Positions 9,643 to 29,135 of a stretch of 54,894 bases of DNA are shown one piece after another (the first letter of the stretch is position 1; each line of letters opens with the position of its first letter). Both the position numbers and the translations under genes were made by a program. Location: positions 1 through 54,894 of the forward strand of contig NZ_WPCC01000021.1 of assembly GCF_009741925.1 (NCBI RefSeq), written 5' to 3'. Origin of the DNA: Natronomonas sp. CBA1123. GTDB lineage: Archaea > Halobacteriota > Halobacteria > Halobacteriales > Haloarculaceae. The notes below the pieces were generated by a model, which searched no databases, was not told the origin of the DNA, and saw only the letters and a list, made by a program, of their open reading frames with translations.

Positions 9643-10191
9643 ATGTCCACGAACACCGACACCACAAGCGACAGCGACGCTTCGACGCCGCGACTTGGCA
9701 GCCGCGAGAACTTCTGGGGCGGAAGCGACGATCTCGACGCCGACCGCGGCGGGCATAGCGAGTGTCTCGGCACCGACCCGCCGGAACATATCGCCCAACA
9801 GCTTGTGTTGCACCTCGTTGACCCAGTGTGTAACGAAACAGGCCGCCCGCTATCGGAGCCTGTATTCAACCTCCCGAAACAGCAAGCCGTCAGTACGGCC
9901 GGTCACACTATCGAGTGCCTCCCGCATCGCCACCGACGACGCATCGAGGAGCACTCAGGTCGAATCAACTGGGGCGAGACGACTTCGACGGACATCCCGG
10001 AGTTCGAGTACGAGACTTACCGGCTCTGTGTCCATACGTATCTCGCCGAACGCGACTGTCGGTTGACAAGCGTCGACGAGTATCTCGAGTACGCCGAGCA
10101 GGTATGGCGCGACCCCCAATACGGGAGTAAGGACGCTCTCGTGCAGTTCATTCGGAAGATTCGGGAGTGGGAAGACGGCGCGGACAACTGA
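9643..10191 (+). CDS. Hypothetical soluble protein, first gene of central module
   Basis: About 182 residues with an acidic, low-complexity N-terminus and a helical C-terminal half (ECLPHRHRRRIEEHSG...SVDEYLEYAEQVWRD). No signal peptide or membrane segment. ATG 9643 is preferred to an earlier one because the preceding codons do not look coding. It lies 12 bases before the giant membrane protein gene. Function unknown. Confidence 0.68.
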   Translation: MSTNTDTTSDSDASTPRLGSRENFWGGSDDLDADRGGHSECLGTDPPEHIAQQLVLHLVDPVCNETGRPLSEPVFNLPKQQAVSTAGHTIECLPHRHRRRIEEHSGRINWGETTSTDIPEFEYETYRLCVHTYLAERDCRLTSVDEYLEYAEQVWRDPQYGSKDALVQFIRKIREWEDGADN

Positions 10192-10203
10192 GGTTCTTCA
10201 TTC

Positions 10204-13200
10204 ATGACACAGCAATCCACCGCCGATGAGCCGTGGCACCGCCGTCCGACCACCTACCGCCTGCTGGAAGCCGTCGCCCTCACGGGTAGTCTCGGCGCCG
10301 TCCTGACGACGTACCTCCTGCTCGGCGTCCATGCGACGGAGCTCAACCCGGCGTCGGCACTGCTCATCGAGCGCTTCGGGATCGAGGCCGTTGGGCTGGC
10401 CCGAATCGCCGTGGTTCTCGCAGCGTTCGCGGTGCTCGGCGGGCCGATTCGGCGCTGGCGACCGCTCTTCGCTGTTGCCCTCGCCTCGGGAACGGCGCTG
10501 TTGTATCTCGCCAACGGTGCGAACGACCTCCTCGTTCTCGCCCGGACGGGGTTGCCGGAGTCGTTCATCGTTGTTGACGTTGCAACGTTCGCCGCGGTCG
10601 TGGTCGGTGCGGCTGTCGTCGGTGCTGGCCGTCGCGAGATCGCTACTGGACTACGGGCAGCGCGTGGCCTGACGCCAGCGTGGTCGCCGTCGCCGCAGGC
10701 GACCGCCGCCGTCGCGTTCGCTGTGCTGTTGGTGGTGAGTGGTGTCGGGCCGTTCGCTGGGCTCGCTGGCCTCGCACCAACGGACCACGACGGACTGGCG
10801 AGCGCACAAACGAGTTGGACGAAATCCGCTGAATACACTGGCCATTCGACGGTAGTCAATTCGGTCACCACTGGCCCTGATGGCTACCTGTACTCTGGCG
10901 CAAGTTCGGGCGAGGTCCACAAGATTGACCCGTCGGATATGAGCCAAGTCGCTGTGTATTCGGGCCACGGCGACAGTTCAAACGCAGTTACAGTTGGGCC
11001 TGATGGATACGTGTATTCCGGGTCACAAGCGGGCGAGGTCCACAAGATCGATCCGTCGGATATGAGCCAAGTCGCTGTTTATACAGGACACCCCAAATCA
11101 GTCCAGTCGCTTGCCGTCGGTGCAAACGGATATGTGTATTCTGGCGGTGGTGGCCCGGACACAATCGACGGGGAGGTCCACAAGATTGACCCGTCGGATA
11201 TGAGTCAAGTTGGCATCTTCGCCGGGCACTCCAACACCGTTGAGAGTTTAGCATTCGATTCGAGTAATAACCTGTATTCAGGCGCGTTTGACGACGAGAT
11301 CCACAAAATCGATACGTCTGACATGACTGAAACCGGGACATACACCGGCCACTCGGGGGCAGTCATTTCGTTGACGGTGGGTGAAAACGGGAATCTGTAT
11401 TCTGCATCCAATGACAATGAAGTCCACAAGATTGACCTGTCGGATCTAAGCCAAGTAGACACCTACACTGGCCATTCAAACTCGGTGAAGTCAGTCGCCT
11501 TCAGTGCTGATGGATTTCTCTATTCTGGCGGTAATGATGACGAGGTTCACCGAGTCGACCCGGCGGATATGACGCAAGCAGATACCTACACCGGCCATTC
11601 TAATGACTTGAACACAATCGCGACAGACGACGAGGCATTCGTTTACTCTGGGACACATAACAACGTTATTCACAAGACTGACCCCGGCACCTCCGTCGGA
11701 CAGCCAATCACGGGCACCGTCACCGACAACGGCGGCAACCCTGTCGACGGCGCAACCGTCTCGACCGGCACGGGAGTCTCAACGACCACCGGCGCCGATG
11801 GCAGCTACTCGCTGACTGTCGAGAACACCGGCACGTACGATGTGACCGCCGAGACCGCCATCGACTCTGAAACCCAGACGGTCGACGTACCCGACGGCGG
11901 CATCACGGGCGTGAACTTCTCGCTCCAATCCGGCACCGTCGCCGGTGTCGTCGAGGATCAGAACGGCAACCCCGTCGCCGATGCGACGGTCACGACGTTG
12001 ACGTACAACACCGCGGACCCGAACGTCGACATCAACCTCGAAGAGCTCCGCGACATCGTCGAGAACCCACTACCGCCGCAGTGGGAGGAGTTTCAATCCC
12101 GCGAGGGTGTGACACCGACCGAGTTGACAACCGAGGGCACTGGGACAACCGCGGGTGGCGACCTCGTCTTCGCCGAACAGACCAGTGACACGCGGGTCCT
12201 GCTGCACACGCCCGACCAGTGGGAGCTTGAAGGCCAGCCTTGGCCGATGGACGGTGTCGTCAGCATCCCGACCGCCGAGTTGAATCCGCCGCGAGTCGCT
12301 GTCCCGGCTGATTCACGCCCCGTGTTCTCCTGTTGGAACACCGACCCCGGAACCATCGAGGACACGTTCGAGGACAACTTCGGCGGGCAACTCGACGGCG
12401 TCACCTACGACACGTGCGACTCGATTACGATTGAACGCCTCGGCCCAACCGGTAGCGTCGAGGAGACGACCGAAGTCACGCCGTCGCCCAGTATCCGCAT
12501 CCAGCAGGGCTGGGCGGCGATCTCGAACGGGTTCACCGTCGAGTACGAGACCGCACGACCGGACCTTGGCTCGGGTATCTACCGCGTCTACCCCAGCGAC
12601 GACCCGGACGCCGCGATGGTCTACGCCGTTGCGCCGAACGGCAACCCTGAGAAGATTGCGAACAACATCGTCAACGTCACGAACAACGAAATCGAGGCCA
12701 AGAACGACTACCTCCAAGAAATCAAAGACCAGCACGACGCCGGGAACATCGACATCAAGACCACGACGACGAACGACCGTGGTGAGTTCTCCTTCGAGAT
12801 CGACGAGACCGTCGTCGAGGAGGTCGAACTCCGAGCGGCCAAGAGCGGCACCGGGCTGGAGGCGCAACTCGCCAGCGGCGAACTGAATCGCCAGCAACTC
12901 GCTGCGGACTTCGAGGACACGGTCACCGGCGAGTTCAACACCTTCGACAAGTCGTCGGTGCGGTTCTCGGAGGCCGAAGTCGGAACCCAAGAGTTCGGCG
13001 ATGTGTGTCGCCAGATGGGCAGCGTCGCCGACGACCTCGGCGCCCCGTACACCGGCTCGGCGAGCACGGAAGTCCCGAACCCCGACGTGACCATCCAGGG
13101 CCAACGCGCCCCGATACCGGAGGGTGTCAGCCAGCCCGTTCGGGAGTGCGCCGTCCTCAATTACGCCCAACAGGCCCTGGAGGACCCCGGCAGCCTCCTG

Positions 13201-14676
13201 CCCGGCCTCGCCGGTGACATCGCCGACATGGCCCAAGCGGAACTCGAAGGCCACTACGAAAACATCCTCAACCTGCTGAAGGGCAACGAAGACCTCCAGT
13301 CGGTCGTCGAGGACGAACTCGGACGCGACCTCCCCGACGACCCCTCGGAACTCGACCGCGATGAAATCGAGACGGTCATCCGCGATGGGCTTGATGGCGT
13401 CGACAACCCGAGCGACGACATCAACGTGGGCGAACCCGACGACAGCCCCGTCCCCGACATCCCGGGTGGCGATGACGACAACGACGCCCCGACTGTCGAC
13501 GACCCAACCGAGGAAATCAGCGACCGCGTGAACGAAACGATCACACGCGAATGGCCGATCACCGGCGTCGACGACTGGGAGGAAGCCGGTCTCCTCATCC
13601 GCATCGACTACGCCGACGGCACCAGCGAGACGCTCTCTCGCGACAGCGAGTACGTCACGCTCGACGAGTCGGCGGTCGGGCCGGACACCGTCCGGCTCGA
13701 AGAGTTCCCGTTCGGCGAGGGCGACTCGGCGGTCGCGAACATCCGCCTCGATGTCTCCACGCCGCAGGGCATCGGCGGCGAAGAAACGCCGGTTCGGAAC
13801 CCGACGTTCGACGGCACCGTCCCGTCGCTGGACAGTATCCGGCTGTCCGACTCGGCGCCCGGACCCTCAGATGCCGTCACGGTCGGCGTGACGCCCGCCG
13901 AGTCCAGTCAGTTCGGCACACTGCAGACCGTGAACGTCACGGGGCCGCAGTGCAGCCGCTCCATCCAAGCGTCGGATGGTGACGCGACCTTCACGACCTG
14001 CGGCGCCGGCCCACACCGGGTTGCGGCGACGTTCACCAACGCCGACGGCGTCCAGTTCACCGAGGTCCTGAGCGTCAAGGCGGGCAACGCTGCCCAGGCG
14101 CGTGACCCGCTGATTCGTGGCGCCGCCGGCCCGACCGGCCGCTTCGCAGTGGCGGCGAACGGCCTCGAATCCGGTCGCATCGACGTGACCGCTGGTACGA
14201 GCGAGGTCATCCTCACCGGCATCGTCCCCGCGGACGTCGACATCCCGAACCGCGTGAAGGCCTCGACGACCGGCGTCGACGTGGCCCGCGGCGCCACCAC
14301 GACCGTCCGCATCCGGCAGGGCCCGAACGAGCAGACGATTCGCGACCGCATCGGCGTCGTACTGCACACGAGCGCGGTCGGGAACGAAAGCTTGCTCTGG
14401 CGGAACGGCCGCCCGATTCGGAACCCCGGCGACACCGCCTCCTCGTCAGTGGAACACTTCAACGATTCAACGGCTATAGATACATATTCATCAGACACGG
14501 CGACCGTCCGGGTAGAAGTTGACCGAGATCCATCCATCTTCCAAGAATTCCGACATTCCGTACAACTCAGATTCGCCGGAATCGATATCCCATTCCTCTC
14601 CACTTTCACCACGGTCGGCGCATCATCTTATGCCTCGATTTTGTACACCCATCTACCGAAATTAATCTGGTGGTGA
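10204..14676 (+). CDS. Giant membrane protein with seven-bladed beta-propeller
   Basis: A 1490-residue protein likely exposed on the cell or particle surface. The first ~190 residues hold four to five hydrophobic segments. Residues ~205-495 form seven repeats of the type YTGHS..V.S...GPDGYLYSG...GEVHKIDPSDMSQV, a seven-bladed WD40/YVTN-like propeller. Two carboxypeptidase-regulatory-like beta domains follow (ITGTVTDNGGNPVDGATV; VAGVVEDQNGNPVADATV), then a long helical/acidic region and Ig-like strands. The last ~70 residues are AT-richer, and the gene runs into an inserted HNH gene. A remnant of the probable old C-terminal membrane anchor survives at 15794-15853. I recall beta-propeller proteins on the vesicle-forming haloarchaeal plasmid pR1SE; homology is unverified. 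Confidence 0.85.
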   Translation: MTQQSTADEPWHRRPTTYRLLEAVALTGSLGAVLTTYLLLGVHATELNPASALLIERFGIEAVGLARIAVVLAAFAVLGGPIRRWRPLFAVALASGTALLYLANGANDLLVLARTGLPESFIVVDVATFAAVVVGAAVVGAGRREIATGLRAARGLTPAWSPSPQATAAVAFAVLLVVSGVGPFAGLAGLAPTDHDGLASAQTSWTKSAEYTGHSTVVNSVTTGPDGYLYSGASSGEVHKIDPSDMSQVAVYSGHGDSSNAVTVGPDGYVYSGSQAGEVHKIDPSDMSQVAVYTGHPKSVQSLAVGANGYVYSGGGGPDTIDGEVHKIDPSDMSQVGIFAGHSNTVESLAFDSSNNLYSGAFDDEIHKIDTSDMTETGTYTGHSGAVISLTVGENGNLYSASNDNEVHKIDLSDLSQVDTYTGHSNSVKSVAFSADGFLYSGGNDDEVHRVDPADMTQADTYTGHSNDLNTIATDDEAFVYSGTHNNVIHKTDPGTSVGQPITGTVTDNGGNPVDGATVSTGTGVSTTTGADGSYSLTVENTGTYDVTAETAIDSETQTVDVPDGGITGVNFSLQSGTVAGVVEDQNGNPVADATVTTLTYNTADPNVDINLEELRDIVENPLPPQWEEFQSREGVTPTELTTEGTGTTAGGDLVFAEQTSDTRVLLHTPDQWELEGQPWPMDGVVSIPTAELNPPRVAVPADSRPVFSCWNTDPGTIEDTFEDNFGGQLDGVTYDTCDSITIERLGPTGSVEETTEVTPSPSIRIQQGWAAISNGFTVEYETARPDLGSGIYRVYPSDDPDAAMVYAVAPNGNPEKIANNIVNVTNNEIEAKNDYLQEIKDQHDAGNIDIKTTTTNDRGEFSFEIDETVVEEVELRAAKSGTGLEAQLASGELNRQQLAADFEDTVTGEFNTFDKSSVRFSEAEVGTQEFGDVCRQMGSVADDLGAPYTGSASTEVPNPDVTIQGQRAPIPEGVSQPVRECAVLNYAQQALEDPGSLLPGLAGDIADMAQAELEGHYENILNLLKGNEDLQSVVEDELGRDLPDDPSELDRDEIETVIRDGLDGVDNPSDDINVGEPDDSPVPDIPGGDDDNDAPTVDDPTEEISDRVNETITREWPITGVDDWEEAGLLIRIDYADGTSETLSRDSEYVTLDESAVGPDTVRLEEFPFGEGDSAVANIRLDVSTPQGIGGEETPVRNPTFDGTVPSLDSIRLSDSAPGPSDAVTVGVTPAESSQFGTLQTVNVTGPQCSRSIQASDGDATFTTCGAGPHRVAATFTNADGVQFTEVLSVKAGNAAQARDPLIRGAAGPTGRFAVAANGLESGRIDVTAGTSEVILTGIVPADVDIPNRVKASTTGVDVARGATTTVRIRQGPNEQTIRDRIGVVLHTSAVGNESLLWRNGRPIRNPGDTASSSVEHFNDSTAIDTYSSDTATVRVEVDRDPSIFQEFRHSVQLRFAGIDIPFLSTFTTVGASSYASILYTHLPKLIWW

Positions 14677-14683
14677 TGTCGAT

Positions 14684-15730
14684 ATGGCTCAAAAAATCCC
14701 GCGAGATACGTTGATTGAAGCTCTCCGAGATCTTGCGGATGAGCTCGGTGAAACGCCCACCTCTGTCGAGATGGCTGACAAGGGAGAATACGCATATTCC
14801 ACCTACGGGAAACGGTTCGGGTCGTGGAGTGAGGCACTCCATGCAGCAGACCTTGACCCAACGACACCCCAACAACTAACGGTTGAGTGCGATACGTGCG
14901 GCACGGAGCTTGACCGCCCTCCATGCCGCGTGGAGAATACTGAACATCAATTTTGCTCGCAAGACTGCCAGTATTCCCATGACGCGATAGGTAATCCGGA
15001 GGCAGGCCGTGAACAGCAGTACTCTGATGAAGAATTACTCTCGGAGTTAGAATCGTTCGCCGAGGAACTCGGACGGACGCCAACAAGGCGAGAATTCAAG
15101 GAATATGCAAGCTACTCCGTTTCAACGCTCTCCCGGAGGTTTGGGACTTGGAATAGTACGCTTCGGAAAGTCGGTCTTGAACCGAACAACAAGGAACTCA
15201 GAACGGTTCAGTGTGCGAACTGCTCGTCCACTATCAGACGCCGCCCGGACATTCTTGAACAGACTGAACACAACTTCTGCGATCAAAAGTGCATGGACCA
15301 GTTCAATTCGTTTGAAACCAATTGTGCAAACTGTGGCCAATCTCTCCGAAGGCCGATGCACAAAGAGGGTTGCTTTGAGAGATACTTCTGCGATAATGAC
15401 TGTAAATCGGAGTGGCAGTCTGAGAACCTAATCGGTGAGTCAAGCCCTCTCTGGAAAGGCGGGCCAGCACAATATGGTAAGGGTTGGAATGAGGCGAAGA
15501 AACGGGAGGTCCGCAGCCGTGACGGTTACGAATGCCAGAGCTGTGGAATGGATCAAACAGAACACATCGATGTGTACGGTCGGAAATTAGACGTACATCA
15601 CATCGTCCCTGCTCGGCAGTTTGACACAGACGATGCTTCGAAAAATGATTCAGATAACCTCGTAACACTCTGCCAACGGTGTCACAGCGAATGGGAGGGC
15701 GTCCCCCTCCGCCCACAACTCGCTGATTAA
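14684..15730 (+). CDS. HNH homing-type endonuclease
   Basis: The 348-residue protein has two copies of a homing-endonuclease-associated helical repeat (about 6-55 and 112-162: ELGETPT...YGKRFGSWSEAL and ELGRTPT...RRFGTWNSTL), each followed by Cys-pair zinc fingers. A C-terminal HNH nuclease (about 280-340) shows CQSCG, LDVHHIVPAR, NLVTLCQRCH. It probably nicks or cuts a specific site and copies itself there. It is AT-richer than its neighbours and sits exactly at the 3' end of the giant gene, splitting it from its old tail: a transferred insertion. Confidence 0.92.
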   Translation: MAQKIPRDTLIEALRDLADELGETPTSVEMADKGEYAYSTYGKRFGSWSEALHAADLDPTTPQQLTVECDTCGTELDRPPCRVENTEHQFCSQDCQYSHDAIGNPEAGREQQYSDEELLSELESFAEELGRTPTRREFKEYASYSVSTLSRRFGTWNSTLRKVGLEPNNKELRTVQCANCSSTIRRRPDILEQTEHNFCDQKCMDQFNSFETNCANCGQSLRRPMHKEGCFERYFCDNDCKSEWQSENLIGESSPLWKGGPAQYGKGWNEAKKREVRSRDGYECQSCGMDQTEHIDVYGRKLDVHHIVPARQFDTDDASKNDSDNLVTLCQRCHSEWEGVPLRPQLAD

Positions 15731-15793
15731 CCTCAAACAATGATTCTCAAAAATTCATCCCACTTGGTGAGCTGCAGGACTAACGAACAATCC

Positions 15794-15853
15794 TACCTCC
15801 CCCTAGCACTGCTTGGCGGTGGCGTTGCGGCTGCACGGAGGGTCGAGCCATGA
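15794..15853 (+). pseudogene. Displaced C-terminal anchor of the giant membrane protein
   Basis: Reading from TAC at 15794, the frame encodes YLPLALLGGGVAAARRVEP and ends in TGA overlapping the next ATG (CCATGA). A hydrophobic helix followed by Arg-Arg is a typical C-terminal membrane anchor, and the overlap matches the tight packing of this module. It has no start of its own. It is best read as the old end of the gene at 10204, cut off by the HNH insertion. Confidence 0.62.
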
Positions 15854-17481
15854 CACGAGACACCGAACCCACGGCGACGCGGCGGAACGTCCTCAAGACG
15901 ACTGCGGCCGCCCTGACGATGGGCGCCCTCGGCACGCCTGCAGCGGCGGCGACCGAAGGCCTGTCGCCACCCGCGGACGCCGCGGCGGGCCTGCTGGGCT
16001 TCGACCCTGACGGCGTCGATGCGGATCTCACCGTCATCGAACGGCACGGCCACCCGTCGTGGATCGTCACGACCACCGACGACGGGCTCGTCGACCTCGC
16101 CGGCGAGTCACCCGATGACGACGCCGGTTGGATCGCTGGCGGCGAGGAGCGCTACGAGATCGCCCGGGACGCCGACGCGAACATGGTCACCGTCGCCGCG
16201 CCGCCGGGCGACATCGGTGTGACCACACTCGACCGGACACTCAACCGCGGGTTGCTTACCGAGAGTTACGTCGAGTCAGTCGCGCTGGACATCGAGATGG
16301 CGTATCCCGAGCCCATCGGCGAGGTCGCAGAGAGTCGCTTCGACCCGACGGCGAACCTCAGCCGCTGGGCGTCGTTCCGCGTCAACGAGGGCGGCCTTAG
16401 TGCCGGCCTCGCCTACGACGACGATATGCCCGCCGCGACGCTGTCGGACGTGCGCGAGGTGACGAACGCCGACGACACCAGCCTCGGTGGTGCGCTCTTC
16501 GACACCTCGAACCTCACCATTGGCGTCCTCGATACGGGCGTCAACGCCGGGTCGGTATTCGACGACTCCACGGGCTCGACGCGCATCGTCTCGGCGTCGA
16601 AGAACTTCATCAGCGGCGAGACCGTCGGCGACGCCGGTGTCACGGCTGTGGCAGATGGGTCATCTCATGGGACATGGGTGACCTCCTGCATCGCCGGCGA
16701 CCCCGCGGATTCGACGTACGAATCGTACGCGCCGGCGGCGGACATCCTCGCGTGTAAGACGCTTTCCGACAGCGGGTCGGGGAGCGCGTCGGATATCGCG
16801 ATGGCCGTCCGGTACGCCGTCGACAACGGCGCCGACGTACTCGTGATGAGCCTCGGGTCGGCCACGTTCAACGAACCGCTCGCAGAGGCCGTTGGGTACG
16901 CCCACGAGGAAGGTGTGCCGTGTGTCGTCGCCGCTGGGAATAGCAGGCACACCGTTCGCTGGATAGCGTCGCCGGCGGACGCCGAGAAGGCCGTGACGGT
17001 CACGGCCTCGACGGCCGAGCCCGCCGACGACGCGAAGAGCGCGGCGTTCTCCCAGGTCGACCCGGACCCCGGGACGACCGACCTCTCCGGGGGCGAAACC
17101 GCTGGGAGTCACGTCGACGTGGTCGCCCCCGGCTGTAAGATCACGGTCCAGACGCCCAGCGCCCTCTCGCAACTCACCGGGACGAGCATGGCGGCGCCCG
17201 TGGTCGCCGGCGGTATCATGCAACTCTACGCCGCCGACAGCGGGCCGAAAGGCGACGTGGAAGCGACAAAGGAACGCCTCGCCTACGCGGCGCCGGCGCC
17301 GAAGATCGGTGAGACCGAAGCCGCCCACGGGATGCTCGACGTGGCCGGCGCTATCGACGAGGTCGAGGCCGACGAAACCCAAACCGAGGCTCGCACCGAC
17401 ACCGCCGCGGCACGGGACGCCGCTCACCGACAACTCTCCGATATGCAGGGCGGCCGTATCGCGAGGTTCCTGTCCCGATAA
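15850..17481 (+). CDS. Tat-exported subtilase (S8 serine protease)
   Basis: A 543-residue secreted protease. A twin-arginine signal (TRRNVLKTTAAALTMGALG) is followed by a propeptide-like region and the subtilisin domain with Asp228 (GVLDTG), His273 (SHGTWV), oxyanion Asn364 (AAGN) and Ser446 (GTSMAAP). All catalytic residues are present, so it should be active outside the cell. Its place between surface-protein genes suggests processing of those proteins or opening of the target cell envelope. The C-terminus is acidic and helical, without the PPC domain often seen in halolysins. Confidence 0.92.
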   Translation: MTRDTEPTATRRNVLKTTAAALTMGALGTPAAAATEGLSPPADAAAGLLGFDPDGVDADLTVIERHGHPSWIVTTTDDGLVDLAGESPDDDAGWIAGGEERYEIARDADANMVTVAAPPGDIGVTTLDRTLNRGLLTESYVESVALDIEMAYPEPIGEVAESRFDPTANLSRWASFRVNEGGLSAGLAYDDDMPAATLSDVREVTNADDTSLGGALFDTSNLTIGVLDTGVNAGSVFDDSTGSTRIVSASKNFISGETVGDAGVTAVADGSSHGTWVTSCIAGDPADSTYESYAPAADILACKTLSDSGSGSASDIAMAVRYAVDNGADVLVMSLGSATFNEPLAEAVGYAHEEGVPCVVAAGNSRHTVRWIASPADAEKAVTVTASTAEPADDAKSAAFSQVDPDPGTTDLSGGETAGSHVDVVAPGCKITVQTPSALSQLTGTSMAAPVVAGGIMQLYAADSGPKGDVEATKERLAYAAPAPKIGETEAAHGMLDVAGAIDEVEADETQTEARTDTAAARDAAHRQLSDMQGGRIARFLSR

Positions 17482-17483: not shown

Positions 17484-18290
17484 ATGTCCCGCAACCAGCC
17501 AGCCGCCCGCCCGACGAGACGTACGTTTCTCCGGCGTGGGACGGCCGTCACAGCCGCCGCAGTGGGCGCGACGACGCTCGCCTCGACCGCGGCCGCCGAA
17601 CGCAGCCCACCGCCTCACGTGACGCTCTCCTATGACCAACAGCAGTTAAAGCAGTACCGCCCGCTGTTGGACATCCCCTCGGACGCCGAGTTCTCGTCGC
17701 CGGAGTGGTACGGCTGGGTTGCCGAGTCACCGGAGTACGACACGACGTGCCTTGTGTACTTCGCGTACTATCGCGGCCAACGTGGCTGGACCCGCGCCGA
17801 TTCTCACAGGGGTGACCGCGAGCCGATGTACGTGTTTCTGGACCAGTACGGCACCGTCACCGAGGTCGTGTACTCGGCGTGGCACTGGATGCAAGCGAGT
17901 TCGTCGACGCCGAATCTCTACGAACCCGACAGCGGCGGGAGTCACGTGACGGCCCGTACCTTCGAACCGCATCACCAATACAAATTGAACGGCGCGAACG
18001 CCGGTCGGCTGCTGCCGGTGAACGAGCTCGGGACGAGCGAGGACGCGCCCTTTGTCGCCGACCTTGAGAGCGACGTACAGTTCGAGCAGTGGCTCGCGGA
18101 GGGGTGGAGTGAAGCACTGCATCCGGGCGCCGCCACTGAGCCGTGGATCATGCAGAACCGGGATTCGTGGTGGCGTGACGGCACCGAACGCTACGCGCGG
18201 GCGGTGTGGAACGTCCAACTCCAACTTGCCCAGTTCGGCTTCGAGAGCCTCGCCGGCGAAGCTTCGAACACCGACCTCGCAGACCAATAA
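17484..18290 (+). CDS. Tat-exported protein of unknown function
   Basis: 268 residues beginning with a clear twin-arginine signal (TRRTFLRRGTAVTAAAVGATTLA). The mature part is rich in aromatic residues (Trp/Tyr) with EWYGWV, WWRDGTERYARAVW and an HHQYKLNG segment. It may be a substrate or partner of the adjacent protease, from which it is separated by two bases. No domain is recognised; an S-layer-associated or lytic role is speculation. Confidence 0.78.
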   Translation: MSRNQPAARPTRRTFLRRGTAVTAAAVGATTLASTAAAERSPPPHVTLSYDQQQLKQYRPLLDIPSDAEFSSPEWYGWVAESPEYDTTCLVYFAYYRGQRGWTRADSHRGDREPMYVFLDQYGTVTEVVYSAWHWMQASSSTPNLYEPDSGGSHVTARTFEPHHQYKLNGANAGRLLPVNELGTSEDAPFVADLESDVQFEQWLAEGWSEALHPGAATEPWIMQNRDSWWRDGTERYARAVWNVQLQLAQFGFESLAGEASNTDLADQ

Positions 18291-20940: not shown

Positions 20941-21200
20941 TGGCACGGATTCCAACGCCCATCCCGGAGTCGGTCGTCAAAGACACGAAGCGCTTTTTCG
21001 CCGGTGGGTGGGGCGACATCCTCTGGAAGGCCTTCGTCGTCGTGGTCGGTGGGCTGCTGTTGGCGTTCATCCTCGCGTTGAACCCGGGTTTTTTCGTCGC
21101 CGCATTGGTCGGGATGGTGCTCTCGGTCGTGTTTTCGGATAACATCCGCGCGTTCGTATCGGACGTGTGGAACCGGAACTTCTGGGTGTGGCGAACATGA
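20940..21200 (+). CDS. Small membrane protein, two TM helices
   Basis: 86 residues. A charged N-terminus (VVKDTKRFFAGGWGDILWKA) precedes a hydrophobic hairpin near 31-65 and an amphipathic end. The first ATG in the longer frame lies inside the upstream gene, so the ATG at 20940 overlapping that stop is preferred. Its end overlaps the next gene by four bases. Confidence 0.75.
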   Translation: MARIPTPIPESVVKDTKRFFAGGWGDILWKAFVVVVGGLLLAFILALNPGFFVAALVGMVLSVVFSDNIRAFVSDVWNRNFWVWRT

Positions 21201-22090
21201 CACGCACCACGACGATGCTGGTGGCGGCGCTGCTCGTCGTGACGCTCCTCACGCCGGCTGCACTCGCCCAGAGCCGCACCACTATCGACGACGACCACGC
21301 CCTTGATACCGAGGCCCAACAGGCGGCGTTCGTCCAAGAGGGCGTCGCCACCGCCGACCTCACGGCACCCGACATGCAGCTGACCGTCGCCACCGAACAC
21401 GACGACGCTGGCTGTGACATCGATGGCTTCCACAGCGACCTCCGGAACGACTACCTCTGTGTGGAGTACAACGAAGAGGTCGACCGGACGATTCGGCTCT
21501 ACATCCCGGCGGAGTACTGGACGCCGTACGTCCGCGAGACCGTCTCGCCAGTCGCCGGCGACCAATCGGCGTCCTTCGAGCCGATTCGAGATAACGGCTA
21601 CACCAAAGTCACCTTCGAGGTAACCGAGCCCGGCACCTACGCCTGGAAGATCAACGCCGAAGCCTCCATCGCCAGCGGCGCGAAAGAGCGAACGCTGGAG
21701 AACATCGAGAAGGTGACCGGCGTCGGGATGCCGAACGCCTCGACGTGGTCCTACATCAAACCCGAGCAACTCGCCGGCAACAACTCGGCGTACGTCGTTC
21801 GGGCGCCGAACGGCACCGACGCCCTCGTGATGGAGTACCAGACCGCCAGCGGTGAGTGGGCGCAAGTCCCGGACGAAGCCGAGTCCTACGCCCCAGTCTA
21901 TTACGAGACGAAGGACGGCGTCGACGACCGCGTCTACGTCTTCGCGACGAGTACGGAGGCTCCAGAGGTCCGGTATAAGACAGAGGCAGCAGCGACGACG
22001 CAGATCGGGGCGGCCGTCCGACAGATCGGCCAGATCCCGACGCGCGTCGAGGACATCTTCGGGATCGACATCCCGTTCCTTGGAGGCTAA
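21197..22090 (+). CDS. Secreted protein with C-terminal amphipathic segment
   Basis: 297 residues with a Sec signal peptide (TTTMLVAALLVVTLLTPAALA). Two Cys in the mature region could form a disulfide. The C-terminus ends in IFGIDIPFLGG, a short hydrophobic motif that resembles AGIDIPFLSTF near the end of the giant protein at 10204, suggesting a shared docking peptide. The acidic beta-rich middle suggests a surface domain. Function unknown. Confidence 0.75.
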   Translation: MTRTTTMLVAALLVVTLLTPAALAQSRTTIDDDHALDTEAQQAAFVQEGVATADLTAPDMQLTVATEHDDAGCDIDGFHSDLRNDYLCVEYNEEVDRTIRLYIPAEYWTPYVRETVSPVAGDQSASFEPIRDNGYTKVTFEVTEPGTYAWKINAEASIASGAKERTLENIEKVTGVGMPNASTWSYIKPEQLAGNNSAYVVRAPNGTDALVMEYQTASGEWAQVPDEAESYAPVYYETKDGVDDRVYVFATSTEAPEVRYKTEAAATTQIGAAVRQIGQIPTRVEDIFGIDIPFLGG

Positions 22091-22095: not shown

Positions 22096-22320
22096 ATGCA
22101 AATCGAAACTGACCCCGGCACTGGCCTGCTGTTTTTCGGCACCGTCGCGGCAATCGCTCTCGGCGTCATCACCCTCACCGGGACGTGGGCGCTCGTCATC
22201 TGGGTCGCCATCGTCCTCGTCGGCACCCTCGGCGTGTACGCCATCGGCACTCGCGTCGCCCGCTGGGCCCGCGGTGACCGCCCGCTAATCGACCGCAACC
22301 GCGGTGGTGGTGAGTCGTGA
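22096..22320 (+). CDS. Small membrane protein, two TM helices
   Basis: 74 residues with two hydrophobic helices (about 9-29 and 31-52) and a basic C-terminal tail, which should face the cytoplasm. It belongs to a run of three mini membrane proteins (22096-22768) coupled by overlapping stop/start codons. Such sets occur in virion and conjugation gene clusters, but no family is recognised. Confidence 0.72.
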   Translation: MQIETDPGTGLLFFGTVAAIALGVITLTGTWALVIWVAIVLVGTLGVYAIGTRVARWARGDRPLIDRNRGGGES

Positions 22321-22499
22321 GCCGGAACCCGCCACCCATTTACATGGGGCGCCGCGAGAAGGCGAAACTCGGGTTGTTAAACCTCGGCGTCGGCGTCCTC
22401 GCCTGGCAAGCCAGCCACCTCCTCGGCCGCGTCTTCGTCGCTATCGGCCTCGGGATGCTGTTTTCCGCGGTCGTCCGCGGGGAGGAACGAATCGCCTGA
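22317..22499 (+). CDS. 60-residue membrane protein
   Basis: A GTG start overlaps the upstream stop (GTGA). The product has a basic N-terminus (RRE KAK) and one or two hydrophobic stretches around residues 18-52. Its TGA shares bases with the next ATG. No family is recognised. Confidence 0.68.
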   Translation: MSRNPPPIYMGRREKAKLGLLNLGVGVLAWQASHLLGRVFVAIGLGMLFSAVVRGEERIA

Positions 22500-22768
22500 T
22501 GGCATCGAATAGCTTCATCATCGGCGTCGTCATCGCGACCGCGCTGGTGACGCTCGCCGCCATCATGTGGCGCGAAGACCTCATCCGCTACCACGTCTTC
22601 GAGCCACTCGAACAAGGCCGGACGCTCATCGGCCTCGTCATCACTGGCCTCGGCGCGTGGGTCGCACTGAACAGCGGCGTCGCCTGGCAGATGTTCATCG
22701 CCCTGGGTGGCATCGCGTTCGTCGTTATGTACCTGTATTTCGAGCAACCGCACGAGGACATCCGCTAA
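22499..22768 (+). CDS. Membrane protein, three TM helices
   Basis: 89 residues. Hydrophobic stretches lie near 6-24, 42-59 and 62-82, with an acidic C-terminus. The ATG at 22499 overlaps the previous stop. Position just before the soluble gene and the ATPase suggests it is part of the membrane channel they serve. Confidence 0.72.
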   Translation: MASNSFIIGVVIATALVTLAAIMWREDLIRYHVFEPLEQGRTLIGLVITGLGAWVALNSGVAWQMFIALGGIAFVVMYLYFEQPHEDIR

Positions 22769-22770: not shown

Positions 22771-23319
22771 ATGACACAGACAGAGAACGAACTCATCGAG
22801 CGCTATCTCGAAGCGACAGCGTACGTCCAAGAGCCCGCCCTCGAAGACGACGCGCCCGAGATGATCAAGCGCTTCCACGATATCGAGAAGCGCCTGGAGA
22901 CGTTGTGGTCGCGGGACCACGCCGAATGGATCGCCGGCTTCTACCGGAACGCCTACCGCGCCTTCCAGGCCGGCGACCGCGACGACCCGCCGTGTGAATG
23001 CCCGAATCCACGCTGTCCGTTGAAGCAGGGGAGCGTTCCCTACCAGCTGCGGCGCCGGCGGACGAACCTCGACACACCGGAGGCGACGCCGATGGAGACA
23101 CTGCGGTCCTACCTGAAGACGCACCCGGAGGCGACCGTCATCGAGGAAGCCCTTGAGGAGATCGAAAGCCTCCGGGCCGAGGTGATGGAGGACCTCGCAG
23201 ACTACAACCGCGACGCTCGCGACGTGCTCGACGACCACCCCGCTATCGACGATCAGGACATCGTCGCGCAAGCGGTGAAGGACCCGCCGACGCTCGACAT
23301 CCCCAAGGAGGGTGCCTGA
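22771..23319 (+). CDS. Soluble helical protein with Cys cluster
   Basis: 182 acidic residues, mainly helical, with a CECPNPRC cluster around residue 72 that may bind a metal, and a coiled-coil-like C-terminal half (EALEEIESLRAEVMEDLADY). It precedes the DNA-pump ATPase by one base and so may be its partner or adaptor. Confidence 0.72.
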   Translation: MTQTENELIERYLEATAYVQEPALEDDAPEMIKRFHDIEKRLETLWSRDHAEWIAGFYRNAYRAFQAGDRDDPPCECPNPRCPLKQGSVPYQLRRRRTNLDTPEATPMETLRSYLKTHPEATVIEEALEEIESLRAEVMEDLADYNRDARDVLDDHPAIDDQDIVAQAVKDPPTLDIPKEGA

Positions 23320-23320: not shown

Positions 23321-25363
23321 ATGAGCACCGACCGCGGCATCCACGTCGCCCAGGACCGCTCGCGGAGTCGGACCGACGCCGGCCGCCAGTCTATTCAGCG
23401 GTGGTGTGACATCGGCCACGAAGCACTCGCCGCCCAGGAGTGGGCGACGCTCCACGCAATCTGCGACGCCGAACTCCTCCCGCGAGTGGAGACGGCCCAG
23501 CGCGTCCTCCGGGCCACCGCCCGTCTCGCCGAAGACGCCGACCGGCCGTTCGACGCGCGGGCACTCCGACGGTACATACAGGAGTGCGATGGAACGGCTC
23601 ACGTCGACGTGAACCCCGGGGTTGACACCGACGAAACCACGCTGCAGAACGTCGAAACAACCGTCGAGTCGGCGCCAGTGTCCGAGGCGGTGTTGACCAC
23701 CGCGTTTCGCTCCATCTACACGATGCTCGCTGTCGCCGGCCGCGTCGACACCCAAGCCGAGACCGCCGTCCCAGCTGTGGAGTACGAACACCAGGTCGGC
23801 GAGCGCTACTACCGCGCGCTGTCGCCCGGGAGTCGTCGCGCCGAACTCATCGACCGCGACGGTGATCTCGAGGCGACGCTGTTCACCGGCGGCCAAGGCA
23901 GCGGGAAGTCCACGAGCGTCGAGACCATCGTCGAGGACCGCATCGAACGCGGCCACAAGATCATCGACCTGATGGACTTCACGAAAGCCGAGAACACGAT
24001 GTACGACGTGCCGCCCCGCAACATCGACCTCCAAGAGGTGCGGGCGGAGATGGGCCTCGACGTTGGCTTCCAAGAGTACGACCCGCCGAAGGTGGAGGTT
24101 CGCGTCCCGTTGACGCCAGACATCGAGGACATGCAGTTGCCGTACGATACGGAGCGCGATGAGTGGGTCGTCAAGCCCTTCGCCGTCGCTGCGAGCGATC
24201 TCTCGTATCGCCAACTCGTGATGGTGCTGCCTCACGTCACGAAAACCCAAGAGCAGCACCTCCGTGCGGCATATCAGACGCTCGATCAGAGTCGCGACGA
24301 CTGGACGCTCGCCGACCTCGCCACTGTCGTTCGCGAGGAGACGAACGCCGGCGACAGTATCGCCGACCGCATCGAGCGGTCGCTGGAGACCGCCCAGAAC
24401 AAAGGTTTCGTCCGCGACCAGCAGGTCTCCGACGAGTACCACCTCGACTGGGAGACGATGATGCGAGACACCGACACCGCGACGGCGTTCTCGCTGTTCC
24501 CCATCACCGAGCAATCCGACAAACTCCTGTTGGCATCGTATCTCCTCGACGGGATGTACGAGGCCCGCAACGACTTACTCCGGAGTTTCTCACTCCACGA
24601 CTACCCGACGGTGACGTGCGTGATTCGGGAACTCCACCAGATCGTGCCGTCCTCGAAGTCGCCGCAGGAAGCGGAGGCGACCATCGAGAACTACATGGTC
24701 GACACGATGTCGGAACTCATCGCCCTCGTTCGGCACGCCGACATCGAATTGCTGTGTGACAGCCAGAAGTTCAAACGCCAGCTCTCCGACGACGTCGCGA
24801 AGATGTTCACCCGCATCTTCGCGTTCGGCGGCCAACGGCCCGATATCAAGAAAGTGTTCCAGACACGAATCGGGAGCAGCACCGCCAACGAGCAGGCGCC
24901 GAAAGTCGCCAAGTACCAAAACGGGAAGTGCGCGATGGTCTCCGGCGACGGCTATTCGATGCCGATTCAGATGGCGCCGCCGCGGATGCATCACCTGGAT
25001 GCGAAGACGGACGGCAACGGCCTCCGGTTCCGGACTGAGCACCCGACGCTCGACGAGGAACTACGCGAAGCGCCGTGGGATGCGTCGATTCCGCCGCGGC
25101 TGCGGTTTGACAACGTCGATCCGTCGCCCATTGCCGAGTTCTGGTACGAACACGTCCGCGAGACGCGAGATGCCGATGCCTTCGTCCCGAAAGACGAGCT
25201 CACGGAGGCGTACGCCAAGTGGAGTGACCTCCACGACAAGGCCCCGAAGAGCCACCGAGAGCTCCATACGTACATCTCGCGGAACTTCGATGTCGAGACG
25301 GGGCAACCCACCATCGACGGTGAACGGAAGCGGTCGTACCGCGCGATTAAGCTAACCTTCTGA
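23321..25363 (+). CDS. VirB4/TraC/HerA-like transfer ATPase
   Basis: 680 residues, likely a hexameric motor that powers DNA or protein movement across the membrane. Walker A is TGGQGSGKST (about 189-198) and a Walker B candidate is VTCVIRELHQ (about 431-440). A FAFGG-type sensor and a TRIGSST segment follow. The C-terminal ~65 residues (FVPKDELTEAYAKWSD...SYRAIKL) look like the winged domain found at the end of poxvirus D5-like/phage primases, so the motor may bind DNA directly. It is the only recognisable NTPase of the module. It could act in conjugation, packaging or export; no relaxase or terminase is seen. Confidence 0.8.
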   Translation: MSTDRGIHVAQDRSRSRTDAGRQSIQRWCDIGHEALAAQEWATLHAICDAELLPRVETAQRVLRATARLAEDADRPFDARALRRYIQECDGTAHVDVNPGVDTDETTLQNVETTVESAPVSEAVLTTAFRSIYTMLAVAGRVDTQAETAVPAVEYEHQVGERYYRALSPGSRRAELIDRDGDLEATLFTGGQGSGKSTSVETIVEDRIERGHKIIDLMDFTKAENTMYDVPPRNIDLQEVRAEMGLDVGFQEYDPPKVEVRVPLTPDIEDMQLPYDTERDEWVVKPFAVAASDLSYRQLVMVLPHVTKTQEQHLRAAYQTLDQSRDDWTLADLATVVREETNAGDSIADRIERSLETAQNKGFVRDQQVSDEYHLDWETMMRDTDTATAFSLFPITEQSDKLLLASYLLDGMYEARNDLLRSFSLHDYPTVTCVIRELHQIVPSSKSPQEAEATIENYMVDTMSELIALVRHADIELLCDSQKFKRQLSDDVAKMFTRIFAFGGQRPDIKKVFQTRIGSSTANEQAPKVAKYQNGKCAMVSGDGYSMPIQMAPPRMHHLDAKTDGNGLRFRTEHPTLDEELREAPWDASIPPRLRFDNVDPSPIAEFWYEHVRETRDADAFVPKDELTEAYAKWSDLHDKAPKSHRELHTYISRNFDVETGQPTIDGERKRSYRAIKLTF

Positions 25364-25607: not shown

Positions 25608-25796
25608 ATGACGACGTACCAACTCGACGTTGAAGACTGGCTCTGGGACGGCTTCAAACAGACCGTCAGTCAGTCCGAGACACTGAATGACCCACTCGAA
25701 GCATCGGTCGCCGAGCGTGTCGCCGGCCACGACCTCGTCGACGACGAGCTGCAGGACCGCGCCGAAGCCTACCTCAACGGAGACCACCAGCGATGA
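25608..25796 (+). CDS. 62-residue acidic protein
   Basis: The ATG is chosen at 25608 because the codons before it fall in the hairpin region. The product (DVEDWLWDGFKQTV...) is helical and acidic, and resembles small haloarchaeal DNA-binding or antitoxin-like proteins, but without a clear motif. It overlaps the next gene by four bases, so it belongs to the module's second half. Confidence 0.6.
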   Translation: MTTYQLDVEDWLWDGFKQTVSQSETLNDPLEASVAERVAGHDLVDDELQDRAEAYLNGDHQR

Positions 25797-26728
25797 CGCT
25801 CAACCCCATCACCCACGCCCGGCGGCTCGCCGGCTACATCGCCGAAGACCCCCAGGGCAGCGACGGCCCACCGGAGCGCTGGGACGATACCTCGACGACC
25901 AGCAACGCCATCGGGTTCCTGAAACGGCATCCGTGGCTGTTCGTCGCCGGCCTGTTCTTCGCGCTGGCGACGCTGATGTTCTTCGTGCCCGTCCTGCCGA
26001 CGGCCCACTACAACGGCTGGACGCTCGCCGCCGGCGTCTTCGTCGCCTCGAACGCCGTCACCGCCTACACCTTCCGGAAGAAAGGCATGCAGGCCTGGCA
26101 GGACTACGACCTCAACGTCCTCTTTACTGGTCGCGGTATCGTCCCTCGCGTCGGCAAGTGGGACGGCGACATTGACGACCGCCTGAAGGCGTTCAAAATC
26201 CTGAAGCAAGTTGGCCCCAGCGGCCTCAGAACCGCCTTCGAGCAGTTCCGCGACATCTATTCCCGGCGCGAAATCGAGCGTCACAAGGACAAATACCACC
26301 GCGTCGACACCGACGGCACCGGCGACGTCCGGCATGGTGTCCTGAAGAACACGACGTTCGAAGTCGACACCTGCAAGCACGATGTCGACGTGTTCCGCTC
26401 GATCAGCGTCTCTCATATCGGCCAGCCCGAAGAGCGCCTTGACGCCAAGGACTACGAGACCGCCGGGACCATCGCGCCTGTCATCGACGTGCGGACCAGC
26501 GACAAAATTGACAAGGCGTTCCGTGCCGAAGCCACCGCCCGCCGCCATTCTGACCAAGAGCTCGCTATCGTGAGCCAGCAACTCGATAAACTCGAAGAAC
26601 ACGTCGACCCAGCCGGACAGCCCCTATTCGAACGCACGATGGAGCTTCTCAACGAGGAGAAAGACCGCCGCGAAGCCGCCCAGTCGCGGTCGAACGCCGC
26701 CACGAACGGTACCGGAGGCGAGCACTGA
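25793..26728 (+). CDS. Two-TM membrane protein with large cytoplasmic domain
   Basis: 311 residues. Two hydrophobic helices lie near 49-67 and 76-92, and about 200 mostly charged residues follow, including a coiled-coil-like C-terminus (ELAIVSQQLDKLEEHV...ELLNEEKDRREAAQ). It overlaps both neighbours. The topology fits an inner-membrane platform protein contacting the ATPase. Confidence 0.75.
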   Translation: MTLNPITHARRLAGYIAEDPQGSDGPPERWDDTSTTSNAIGFLKRHPWLFVAGLFFALATLMFFVPVLPTAHYNGWTLAAGVFVASNAVTAYTFRKKGMQAWQDYDLNVLFTGRGIVPRVGKWDGDIDDRLKAFKILKQVGPSGLRTAFEQFRDIYSRREIERHKDKYHRVDTDGTGDVRHGVLKNTTFEVDTCKHDVDVFRSISVSHIGQPEERLDAKDYETAGTIAPVIDVRTSDKIDKAFRAEATARRHSDQELAIVSQQLDKLEEHVDPAGQPLFERTMELLNEEKDRREAAQSRSNAATNGTGGEH

Positions 26729-28395
26729 TGCGCCGGCAACTCCTCACCGCCGCGGCGGTGTGTGTCCTCCTGTTGACGATGCTGCCAGCCGGTATCGCCG
26801 CCCAGGAGGCCACGCCGACGCCGTCCGCGACGCCCGACCCCACGGCGACAGCGACGCCAACCCCCACCGAAACAGGCGGGAACACCACCGACGACGGCCC
26901 TGACGGTCCGGCTATCGGCACCCAACCTATCAGCGTCTATGTCGAACAACCCCGCTGGGTGAGTCAATCCGTCGACGAATCAACGAGCGACGGCCTCCGG
27001 CTCTACAGCGTCCAGGGCAACGTCCACGAACTCGCGCCGGAGGGTATCAACTCCTCGAACGTCGTTCGCTCCGGCGTTCGCGAGGACAACGCCGATTGGC
27101 GCTTCGACTCCGGGATCGGGCGCTGGGTGCTCGACGCCCAGGGCACCGCCGGGACGTACAACGTCTACTGGGTCGTCCGCGAGGACGGCTCGACCACGAC
27201 GTACGGCGCCGTCATCAGCGTCGAGCAAGCCGAATACCAGCACGTCTCGCCCGGCCGCTTCGACGATCTCGAAAACGGCAGTGAGAACTGGCAGTGGGTG
27301 CGGGACCGCTTCGAAGGCGCCGGCCTGCTGGCGAGTGACGCCAGCGTCGACCAGGCGCGTGGCATCATCGGCGACGCCGTCACCTGGTACAAGTTCTACG
27401 TCAACCCGCTGTCGGCGTTGACCGGCCAGTTCTTCACGTTCCTGCTGTTCCTCGTGCGGTGGCCCGCCGGCTGGATCATCCTCGGCTCGATCTTCCTCGC
27501 GTTCTTCCTGTATCACCGGAAGACCGAGCGGGAGAACCGGCGGTTCAAACGCCAGTTCGCCCGTATCGAGGACGTTGACGAAGCCGAACGCCGCGCCGAA
27601 GAACGGGAATTGAAGCGGATGCTCTCGATGCAGACCTTCACCGACCTCGGGCTGTCGGCGTCGGATGCCGAAGCCATCAAACAGCACTGCGATGCCGACA
27701 ACCCCCGGCAGTTCCTCGAACGCCTCCGGGACGGGCTCTCGGAACAGCACATCGTCCGGTTGCTGTTGGGCGCCCACGAGCAACGCGGTGACCACGTCCG
27801 CATCCGACGAGACGCCGACGGCATCGCCGACATGACAGTGCTCAAGGAACCGTACGACGGCGAATCCATCACGAGTGCCGACGGCGGCACCGTCCTCGAC
27901 GACGAGAGCGACGAGGAGGTTCCGGAAATCGGGTACGTCAAGCCGACAGACCTCGATGAGAGCCAACTCCTGCAGTTGGATTGGACGGAACTCAACCCCG
28001 ATATCCTCTGGGACGAGGAGGTCGCGGCGACGGACCTCGGGTTGCCGGTGGCGAACGACGCCCAAGCCGAGGACGACCTCGTCGCCGAGTGGGACATCCC
28101 CATCGGCGAGGACGGCCACGATTACTACATCCTCGAACGCCGCGAGGAGTTCGCCGAGCTGCTGTTGACGTTCATCCAGAACGTCGCCGCCAGCCAGTAC
28201 ACCGACGACGACGGCAAAATCCGGCCGGAGGTCGACCTCATCGAGTTCATGTACACGTTCACCAGCGTCGGCGCCGAGAAGTACCGGTGGTCGTTGCACG
28301 ACACCGTCGACGTGCTGCTGTACAACCGCCAGCGCCTCGACGCCGACGACCGCATGGACGACCTCGCCGACCGGAGCCGACAGGGTGATGCCTGA
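26728..28395 (+). CDS. Large bitopic membrane protein
   Basis: 555 residues. A signal peptide (1-25) and a Thr/Pro-rich linker (about 28-52) lead to an external domain. Strong hydrophobic stretches near 235-262 cross the membrane, followed by a basic/coiled segment (RKTEREN...EEREL) and a cytoplasmic acidic domain of nearly 290 residues. It overlaps both neighbours by one base. It could couple the external structure to the ATPase. Confidence 0.78.
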   Translation: MRRQLLTAAAVCVLLLTMLPAGIAAQEATPTPSATPDPTATATPTPTETGGNTTDDGPDGPAIGTQPISVYVEQPRWVSQSVDESTSDGLRLYSVQGNVHELAPEGINSSNVVRSGVREDNADWRFDSGIGRWVLDAQGTAGTYNVYWVVREDGSTTTYGAVISVEQAEYQHVSPGRFDDLENGSENWQWVRDRFEGAGLLASDASVDQARGIIGDAVTWYKFYVNPLSALTGQFFTFLLFLVRWPAGWIILGSIFLAFFLYHRKTERENRRFKRQFARIEDVDEAERRAEERELKRMLSMQTFTDLGLSASDAEAIKQHCDADNPRQFLERLRDGLSEQHIVRLLLGAHEQRGDHVRIRRDADGIADMTVLKEPYDGESITSADGGTVLDDESDEEVPEIGYVKPTDLDESQLLQLDWTELNPDILWDEEVAATDLGLPVANDAQAEDDLVAEWDIPIGEDGHDYYILERREEFAELLLTFIQNVAASQYTDDDGKIRPEVDLIEFMYTFTSVGAEKYRWSLHDTVDVLLYNRQRLDADDRMDDLADRSRQGDA

Positions 28396-29135
28396 TGTTG
28401 GCCCAGACCGCCGCCGGGTACGCCGAGTCGCTGGCGTTGATTCTCGGCGGGTTGTTCGTCCTCATCCCGGTTCTCTACCTGCTGGCGACGTGGGCGCCGG
28501 GGCGTGAGGGTGACGAACGCCGCCACGAGAAGGCTATCACCAGCGAGTTGCGGTGGTTCGGCGCGACCGAGCAACGCCGCATCCGGGAGGCCGGCCACGC
28601 CGCCCGCATCGAATGCAAGCGACTGGCCGATAGCCAAAGTAAGGCGCGGTACCGGGATCGCCCCGGGAACTGGCTGCGGCGCCGCATCTCGCCCTCGACG
28701 GTCATCGTCCACGGGCGCCGCATCACCGACGGCAACGGCGACGACATCTACGTGTTGTGGATCGACCACTACCAGCTCGCCCACCGCAGTCTGGAGCAGT
28801 TACTCGAGGACGCCGAGACCGTCATCGAGCACCGCCTCGACCGGTCGCGGGTGCCGGCGACGAAGTCCGAGCGCTACTATCAGGACATGTCCGAGGGTTA
28901 CGTCGATATCGAGGAGTTCCAGAAGCGCCTGCAGGGCGACTGCTACACCCGTATCGAGTCGAACATGAAAAAGAACGGCCGCCTCGACGAGGACGACCTC
29001 CGTGAGCGCCTCGTGTACGACGACGGCTTCCGGTATCCGCCGGAGGTGTTCAATCAGAAGCTCCGGCAACGCATCGGGAACGACATCCGCCGCATCCCGG
29101 AGAGCGGTGAGTTAGTCTGGGAACGATTTACCTGA
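28395..29135 (+). CDS. Membrane-anchored cytoplasmic protein
   Basis: 246 residues with one N-terminal hydrophobic helix (about 12-36) and a long basic, helical cytoplasmic part. The segment STVIVHGRRITDGNGDDIYVLWI looks like a beta hairpin domain. It is the last gene of the central module; GC content drops and gene orientation reverses right after its stop. Unknown function. Confidence 0.75.
   Translation: MLAQTAAGYAESLALILGGLFVLIPVLYLLATWAPGREGDERRHEKAITSELRWFGATEQRRIREAGHAARIECKRLADSQSKARYRDRPGNWLRRRISPSTVIVHGRRITDGNGDDIYVLWIDHYQLAHRSLEQLLEDAETVIEHRLDRSRVPATKSERYYQDMSEGYVDIEEFQKRLQGDCYTRIESNMKKNGRLDEDDLRERLVYDDGFRYPPEVFNQKLRQRIGNDIRRIPESGELVWERFT

Follow-up and report, generated by a model that had tools for sequence, protein, structure and literature searches.

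The Halorubrum plasmid pR1SE (KX687704) spreads in membrane vesicles that contain its own proteins (PMC10818511). A 2023 survey covered 40 relatives, named archaeal plasmids potentially transferred in plasmid vesicles (apHPVs; Luecking 2023, PMC10818511). They carry two gene clusters, ORF6-9 and ORF17-25; ORF7 is a subtilase gene, and the product of ORF25 is a VirB4/HerA/packaging-like ATPase (PMC10818511). The vesicles of pR1SE are infectious and contain every core gene product of the plasmid but that of ORF25 (PMC10818511, PMC10384203), and a division between shell and DNA loading has been proposed from proteomics and synteny (PMC10818511). The DNA examined here is contig NZ_WPCC01000021.1 of Natronomonas sp. 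CBA1123 (54,894 nucleotides, the window), in which a module of closely spaced genes extends from position 9643 to 29135. It is probably the transfer module of a pR1SE-like haloarchaeal plasmid with a previously unrecognised version of the motor, termed type B. The literature on pR1SE and apHPVs reportedly also includes Erdmann 2017.

Haloterrigena plasmid pHTUR05 and plasmid pHALXA03 served as stand-ins for pR1SE; each of the six pR1SE proteins used as search queries has homologs in Haloterrigena turkmenica and Halopiger xanaduensis (PMC10818511). Profile-profile comparison of the window families with pHTUR05-type families gave a one-to-one map for cluster 1, with hhalign values of 99.9-100% from ORF5 to the ORF9 slot and for the protein 't', and 97% for 'u'. 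For cluster 2, profiles built from all family members scored 96-99%, with 13 to 16 sequences per side, and each type-B family matched its own type-A counterpart best, with no other clear match. Judged by these profiles, the gene set is a relative of the vesicle-transmitted pR1SE and kin of the apHPVs, not an unknown system. The initial annotation had suspected a relationship with pR1SE, which is borne out by the gene-by-gene match to pHTUR05, a pR1SE relative. It had also regarded the module as undescribed: this does not hold for the kind of system, as apHPVs were surveyed in 2023 and cluster 1 is plainly theirs, but it appears to hold for the divergent and rearranged cluster 2 of type B.

The 30 elements annotated with profiles display two gene orders, which are never mixed. 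Type A comprises 14 elements, including pHTUR05 and pHALXA03 (13 are distinct, one being a near-duplicate on a Halorussus vallis plasmid). Its cluster 2 is ordered ORF17, small genes, a 193-residue gene, ORF21/22, ORF23, ORF24, and ORF25, with the ATPase last. The order in the 16 type-B elements, including the window, is ORF17, w, x, a 182-residue gene, ORF25, ORF21/22, ORF23, and ORF24, the ORF21/22-ORF23-ORF24 block being inverted in two of them. The ATPase gene of type B therefore precedes ORF21, ORF23 and ORF24, whereas that of apHPVs follows ORF24, and the small transmembrane genes w and x are additional. The "ORF21/22 slot" denotes the 340-residue gene, although pR1SE ORF21 may instead be the adjoining 193-residue gene. 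Type B is carried by Natronorubrum daqingense, Natrinema pallidum, Salinigranum rubrum and Halomontanus rarus, and a scan of genome contigs with a narrow alignment added Halobiforma nitratireducens, Natrinema ejinorense and Halovenus aranensis. Among the type-B elements are pNPA70 of N. pallidum, plasmid unnamed5 of S. rubrum and unnamed5 of H. rarus; N. pallidum BOL6-1 and S. rubrum GX10 are type-B strains, and N. daqingense has both types. Several copies reside on contigs of 3-4 Mb and are thus chromosomally integrated. There are consequently more such elements: among 392 sampled genomes of the order, a strong match to the type-B ATPase (E ~1e-44 or better) was found in 13, to the type-A ATPase in 24, and to both in 2. 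Weak ATPase matches (E 1e-9 to 6e-4) in some 25 other genomes were not counted, as they mostly cover only the C-terminal winged helix and belong to larger proteins or primase-helicases.

The published apHPV profiles were approximated by profiles built from 13 type-A elements, a match being 50 bits or more. On the 16 type-B elements, these detected ORF6 in 13, ORF7 in 15, ORF8 in 15 and the ORF9 slot in all 16, but ORF17, ORF21/22, ORF23 and ORF24 in none; the type-A ORF25 profile matched only a remnant in one element, G213. The window itself scored 458 bits for ORF6 and 188 bits for ORF8, with zero matches for ORF17, 21, 23 and 24. A "complete" apHPV was defined by five of ORF6, 8, 17, 21, 23 and 24 (PMC10818511). 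Since type-A profiles recognise ORF17, 21, 23 and 24 in 0 of 16 type-B elements, type B would escape the published criteria. Mean pairwise identities in the published set are 41% for ORF25, 34% for ORF17 and 31.5% for ORF23 (PMC10818511). In our smaller type-A sample they are 49, 37 and 36%, and between the types 16, 16 and 13%. As the published values fit type A alone, unlike a mixture of A and B, the published set appears to be type A. It is plausible but not proven that the "incomplete" elements of the survey, with cluster 1 only, are largely type B; given the three-hit threshold of the survey, many type-B elements would drop out altogether (PMC10818511).

Codon-based gene calling found 20 genes between 9643 and 29135, all on the + strand: 19 module genes, with starts set by a simple codon model, and one HNH gene. 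Many neighbours overlap by 1-4 bases or stand a few bases apart. The surface proteins bear Tat or Sec signals, and the small membrane proteins have one to three transmembrane segments. Coupled genes for surface proteins, a protease, membrane proteins and one pump-type ATPase had been proposed in the initial annotation, and the propeller protein, subtilase, transmembrane proteins and ATPase described below agree with it. The same order is present in 15 other elements from several haloarchaeal families, with about 20-45% protein identity, a conservation far beyond what chance would give.

The module opens ahead of ORF6 with a 182-residue protein of the ORF5 slot (9643-10191; hhalign 99.9% to pHTUR05 4941-5537), which is common to both types. 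The ORF6 homolog (10204-14676, 1490 residues; hhalign 100% over 801 columns to pHTUR05 5547-8963) consists, according to Pfam and transmembrane segment (TM) predictions, of four N-terminal TMs, a WD40 propeller, a CarboxypepD_reg domain and a conserved C-terminal region. The next gene is HNH or homing-endonuclease-like (14684-15730; Pfam HNH_repeat E=7e-46, HNH E=1e-7). It is most likely an insertion, since none of the other annotated elements has an HNH gene between ORF6 and ORF7. The ORF7 homolog (15850-17481; Pfam E=5e-27, hhalign 100% to pHTUR05 8968-10521) is an S8 subtilase with a twin-arginine translocation (Tat) signal and intact catalytic D/H/S motifs (DTG 228, SHG 272, GTSMA 444). 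It is followed by the 268-residue ORF8 homolog, also with a Tat signal (17484-18290; hhalign 100% to pHTUR05 10525-11331), which matches 14 haloarchaeal plasmids. Several type-A elements, pHTUR05 (11341-12393) among them, and G321 have a second ORF8 paralog beside ORF8. The secreted protein in the ORF9 slot (18409-19437; hhalign 99.9% to pHTUR05 14734-15852) was equated with pR1SE ORF9 by position. The apHPV order ORF6-ORF7-ORF8-ORF9, with an S8 protease as ORF7, is thus conserved, the HNH insertion being the sole interruption. Four genes follow: the small transmembrane protein 's' (19440-19700), with a family in 10 elements; the secreted protein 't' (19892-20551; hhalign 100% to pHTUR05 16751-17440) and the two-TM protein 'u' (20548-20940; hhalign 97% to pHTUR05 17640-18086), both common to the two types; and the two-TM protein 'v' (20940-21200), with 10 type-B members.

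Cluster 2 starts with a type-B secreted protein in the ORF17 slot (21197-22090; 97.8% over 268 columns between the B and A profiles). The two-TM protein 'w' (22096-22320) and the three-TM protein 'x' (22499-22768) were found in type B only, by families and element annotation; between them lies a small transmembrane protein (22344-22499) for which no relatives were found. A 182-residue protein with a cysteine motif, from a family of 13 members, is encoded directly 5' of the ATPase (22771-23319), and no homology was detected with the 193-residue type-A protein of the same slot (hhalign 0.8%). The ATPase (23321-25363) is a type-B homolog of ORF25 (hhalign 99.0% over 532 columns) with a D5-like winged-helix region at its C-terminus. 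Behind it is a small gene (25608-25796) in the slot that holds genes for a MoxR-type AAA ATPase and a VWA protein in five other type-B elements (L003, L004, L005, G144 and G269), where they lie between the ATPase and ORF21/22. The 311-residue membrane protein of the ORF21/22 slot (25793-26728; 98.0% between profiles) precedes the ORF23 homolog (26728-28395, 555 residues; 96.2%), which has a signal peptide, a beta-rich exterior, one TM and a cytoplasmic domain. The last gene encodes an internally deleted ORF24 homolog of 246 residues (28395-29135; 97.1%).

The window thus resembles pR1SE and the apHPVs in the ORF6-ORF9 order with its S8 protease, in its homologs of ORF17, 21/22, 23, 24 and 25, in its plasmid setting with a Cdc6-like gene, integrases, archaeal pilin genes and defence cargo, and in the absence of relaxase and capsid genes. 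It includes the VirB4/HerA/packaging-like ATPase homologous to ORF25, and neither capsid nor conjugation genes were detected by Pfam and PHROGs; related plasmids were typed as non-mobilizable. The apHPV order ORF17-ORF21-ORF23-ORF24-ORF25 is absent from the window and the 15 other type-B elements. With two defining features lacking, the window falls outside the published apHPV definition, yet it works like one as far as sequence tells.

The ATPase of the window has an intact P-loop (GGQGSGKST), and its DUF87 (HerA) match (E=0.0037) is below the Pfam cut-off. Throughout the family, the P-loop GxxGxGKS/T is conserved and the R-E and D-x-Q motifs are invariant. Among 11 members, DUF87/HerA was matched by four and FtsK by three, with a best E of 7e-4; Pox_D5 was also found. 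Placement in the HerA/FtsK superfamily is reasonable because of the P-loop, the conserved motifs and the weak but recurrent matches: the core shows Walker A and sensor motifs, the window protein alone passing the cut-off of no family profile. As in the pumping ATPases of this superfamily (HerA, VirB4/TrwB, viral packaging ATPases), there is a P-loop with weak recurrent DUF87/FtsK matches; unlike them, the type-B family has a distinct N-terminal helical region and a swappable C-terminal end. This end resembles in the window protein that of the phage primase family phrog_1156 (E=7e-4), and the same region is present in haloarchaeal primase-helicases and larger ATPases. In N. ejinorense it passes the Pox_D5 cut-off (winged-helix region). 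Six other members end with a different conserved sequence, helix-turn-helix-like by eye; the moxR and VWA genes accompany five of these six and none of the members with a D5-like end. A swappable DNA-binding tail would be in keeping with a role in recruiting one specific DNA. The ATPase profile had no match among the sequences of solved structures.

In the other type-B elements, ORF24 has 492-721 residues and 8-11 predicted TMs, compared with 3-5 TMs in the first four type-A elements. The window copy has one TM: it retains TM1 and the C-terminal domain (positions 435-608 of the hidden Markov model, plus a 10-residue stretch). Neither the core nor another copy was found elsewhere in the 97%-complete genome. 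Without the membrane core of ORF24, the window element may be impaired; should the channel be formed by the polytopic core, this element might fail to export its DNA, unless another protein is relied on. An assembly error may also be behind the deletion. That the whole module is a decaying remnant, left functionless in this strain by the HNH gene between ORF6 and ORF7 and by the loss of the only ORF24 core, is considered unlikely: the remaining 18 module genes have open reading frames, the ATPase and protease motifs are intact, ORF24 has kept its frame across the deletion, and both neighbours of the HNH gene are intact.

The ATPase and the polytopic ORF24 bring to mind contact-dependent conjugation by a type IV secretion-like system, in which the ATPase would be a VirB4/TraC homolog and ORF21, ORF23 and ORF24 would form a membrane channel. 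The module shares with conjugative type IV secretion systems one VirB4/HerA-type ATPase with several membrane proteins, the 8-11 TMs of ORF24 in the relatives are like those of a channel subunit, and ORF25 is structurally similar to VirB4/TrwB (PMC10818511). Conjugation is nevertheless improbable, as pR1SE carries the homologous set and is transferred by vesicles, with no need for contact between cells (PMC10818511). Neither a relaxase nor a coupling protein was found in the module or the scanned flanks, and each of the 14 plasmids that have an ORF8 relative was typed as non-mobilizable. Unlike conjugative systems, the module has shell genes and is devoid of recognisable VirB components. To our knowledge, type IV secretion systems lack shell genes such as those for the subtilase, the propeller protein and ORF8, which also counts against conjugation. 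Slightly less probable still is that the element is a virus or provirus whose capsid went unrecognised, with ORF6 and ORF9 as virion proteins and the ATPase as the genome packaging enzyme. The packaging-like ATPase and the secreted, structural-looking proteins would suit it, and the life cycle of pR1SE has been likened to chronic infection (PMC10384203). A PHROGs scan of the module gave no capsid, terminase or spike match, no relatives of the ATPase were found in 50,697 phage records or in IMG/VR, and the Cdc6-like replication gene and large variable cargo are in the fashion of a plasmid.

The initial annotation had recognised no relaxase, capsid, terminase or coupling protein; Pfam and PHROGs scans of the module and the scanned flanking proteins likewise found none. 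The checks against haloarchaeal viruses and conjugative elements that it proposed, made here with PHROGs, phage records, IMG/VR and Pfam, gave no capsid or spike of a known lineage, relaxase or coupling protein. The readings as a tailed virus, a pleomorphic virus or a canonical conjugation module were rejected. So was a host chromosomal secretion system, in view of the patchy distribution, mostly on plasmid-sized contigs.

The two clusters differ in how they relate to the types, which were defined by gene order and ATPase, independently of the cluster-1 trees. In cluster 1, mean identities between types (ORF7 35.5%, ORF8 32.0%, ORF9 slot 23.2%) equal those within types (35%, 30-33% and 23-26%, respectively). 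The cluster-2 proteins, from ORF17 to ORF25, are 12-16% identical between types and 22-49% within, ranges that hardly meet, and types A and B form separate branches of the ATPase tree (100/100). The number of type-label changes on the trees was close to that in shuffles for ORF7 (8 vs 8.6), ORF8 (9 vs 9.6) and 't' (9 vs 9.3); scrambling was weaker for the ORF9 slot (7 vs 9.3). A single type-A group was rejected by the approximately unbiased (AU) test, with model-dependent p values from trees made by a quick method, for ORF7 (1.6e-9), ORF8 (3.3e-6), the ORF9 slot (1.4e-60) and 't' (2.6e-6). The ORF7 tree was also made with four type-A rows.

In the type-B element G213 (contig C24, L053/L054), the stop of ORF24 overlaps an open frame that corresponds to residues 556-784, the C-terminal third, of a type-A ATPase. 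The best match of this remnant is to Halorussus vallis (40%, E=1e-51), and ORF7 of G213 groups with the H. vallis plasmid (98/97). Apparently, a type-B cassette took the place of a type-A one here, and the type-A tail that stayed behind is the scar of the exchange.

Because the cluster-1 trees scramble the types, cluster 2 splits by type and G213 holds a type-A ATPase tail, shell and motor cassettes appear to have been exchanged between elements. That the types are two old lineages that diverged as wholes, without exchange and with cluster 1 merely slower, fits the clean split of cluster 2 but is very improbable: cluster-1 identity within types is similar to that of cluster 2, so cluster 1 is not slower, its identity between types equals that within, single-group trees are rejected, and a type-A ATPase tail lies behind the type-B cluster of G213. 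The apparently discordant histories of the halves are independent support for two putative functional units. On balance, we lean towards the view that vesicle plasmids combine a common shell with either of two DNA-loading motors, which differ in gene order and diverged long ago; shells and motors would be re-paired repeatedly, and type B would have been invisible to surveys. If so, any shell must work with either motor.

In the proposed mechanism, the shell cassette (the ORF6 propeller protein, ORF7, ORF8, ORF9 and the small secreted and transmembrane proteins) would turn the cell membrane into plasmid vesicles, with the ORF7 subtilase maturing surface proteins. ORF17, small transmembrane proteins, ORF21, ORF23 and the polytopic ORF24, forming the motor cassette, would assemble into a membrane complex, and the HerA/FtsK-like ATPase, holding DNA by its C-terminal winged helix, would load the plasmid into the vesicle. 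The cassettes would be swapped between elements. Vesicle formation, DNA loading and the role of each single protein are assigned by analogy. Several points weigh against the assignment of the module as a pR1SE-like transfer module. The homology to pR1SE is indirect, via pHTUR05 and pHALXA03, and that of cluster 2 consists of profile-profile scores over partial lengths. Vesicle transfer was demonstrated for pR1SE alone and is extrapolated from it to type B. The window ORF24 is devoid of the 8-11-TM core, and AlphaFold models of the ATPase (4 sequences; predicted local distance difference test, pLDDT, 34.6) and of the intact ORF24 of Halovenus aranensis (3 sequences; pLDDT 40.8) were unusable. 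Type B does provide a second sequence set for structure prediction. That the proposed packaging half comes in two divergent forms while the shell half is shared would mean that evolution separates the two functions, and self-made infectious vesicles blur the boundary between plasmid and virus.

The window is one whole contig; no terminal overlap was found, and circularity thus lacks support. Upstream of the module, tandem diverged archaeal type IV pilin genes are present at 7403-8830 (191-nucleotide repeats 76-77% identical; Pilin_N E=4e-24), and pilin genes flank the module in many relatives too. Behind the module, the GC content drops from about 0.64 to 0.50, exactly at 29148-34659, where two gene pairs, each encoding a DUF5658-like membrane protein and a large pilin-like/DUF7289 surface protein, form an inverted duplicate with a tyrosine recombinase gene (31995-32696) between them. 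The 1491-residue P-loop protein encoded at 47215-51690 is probably defence cargo of the element; its C-terminal half resembles the anti-phage family Dsr1 (E=2e-36), and it has a weak match to STAND/Avs-type NTPases. A Staphylococcal-nuclease-like protein with a lamin-tail domain, encoded at 43751-45094, has the architecture of the PADLOC model SNc+LTD (E=2e-24).

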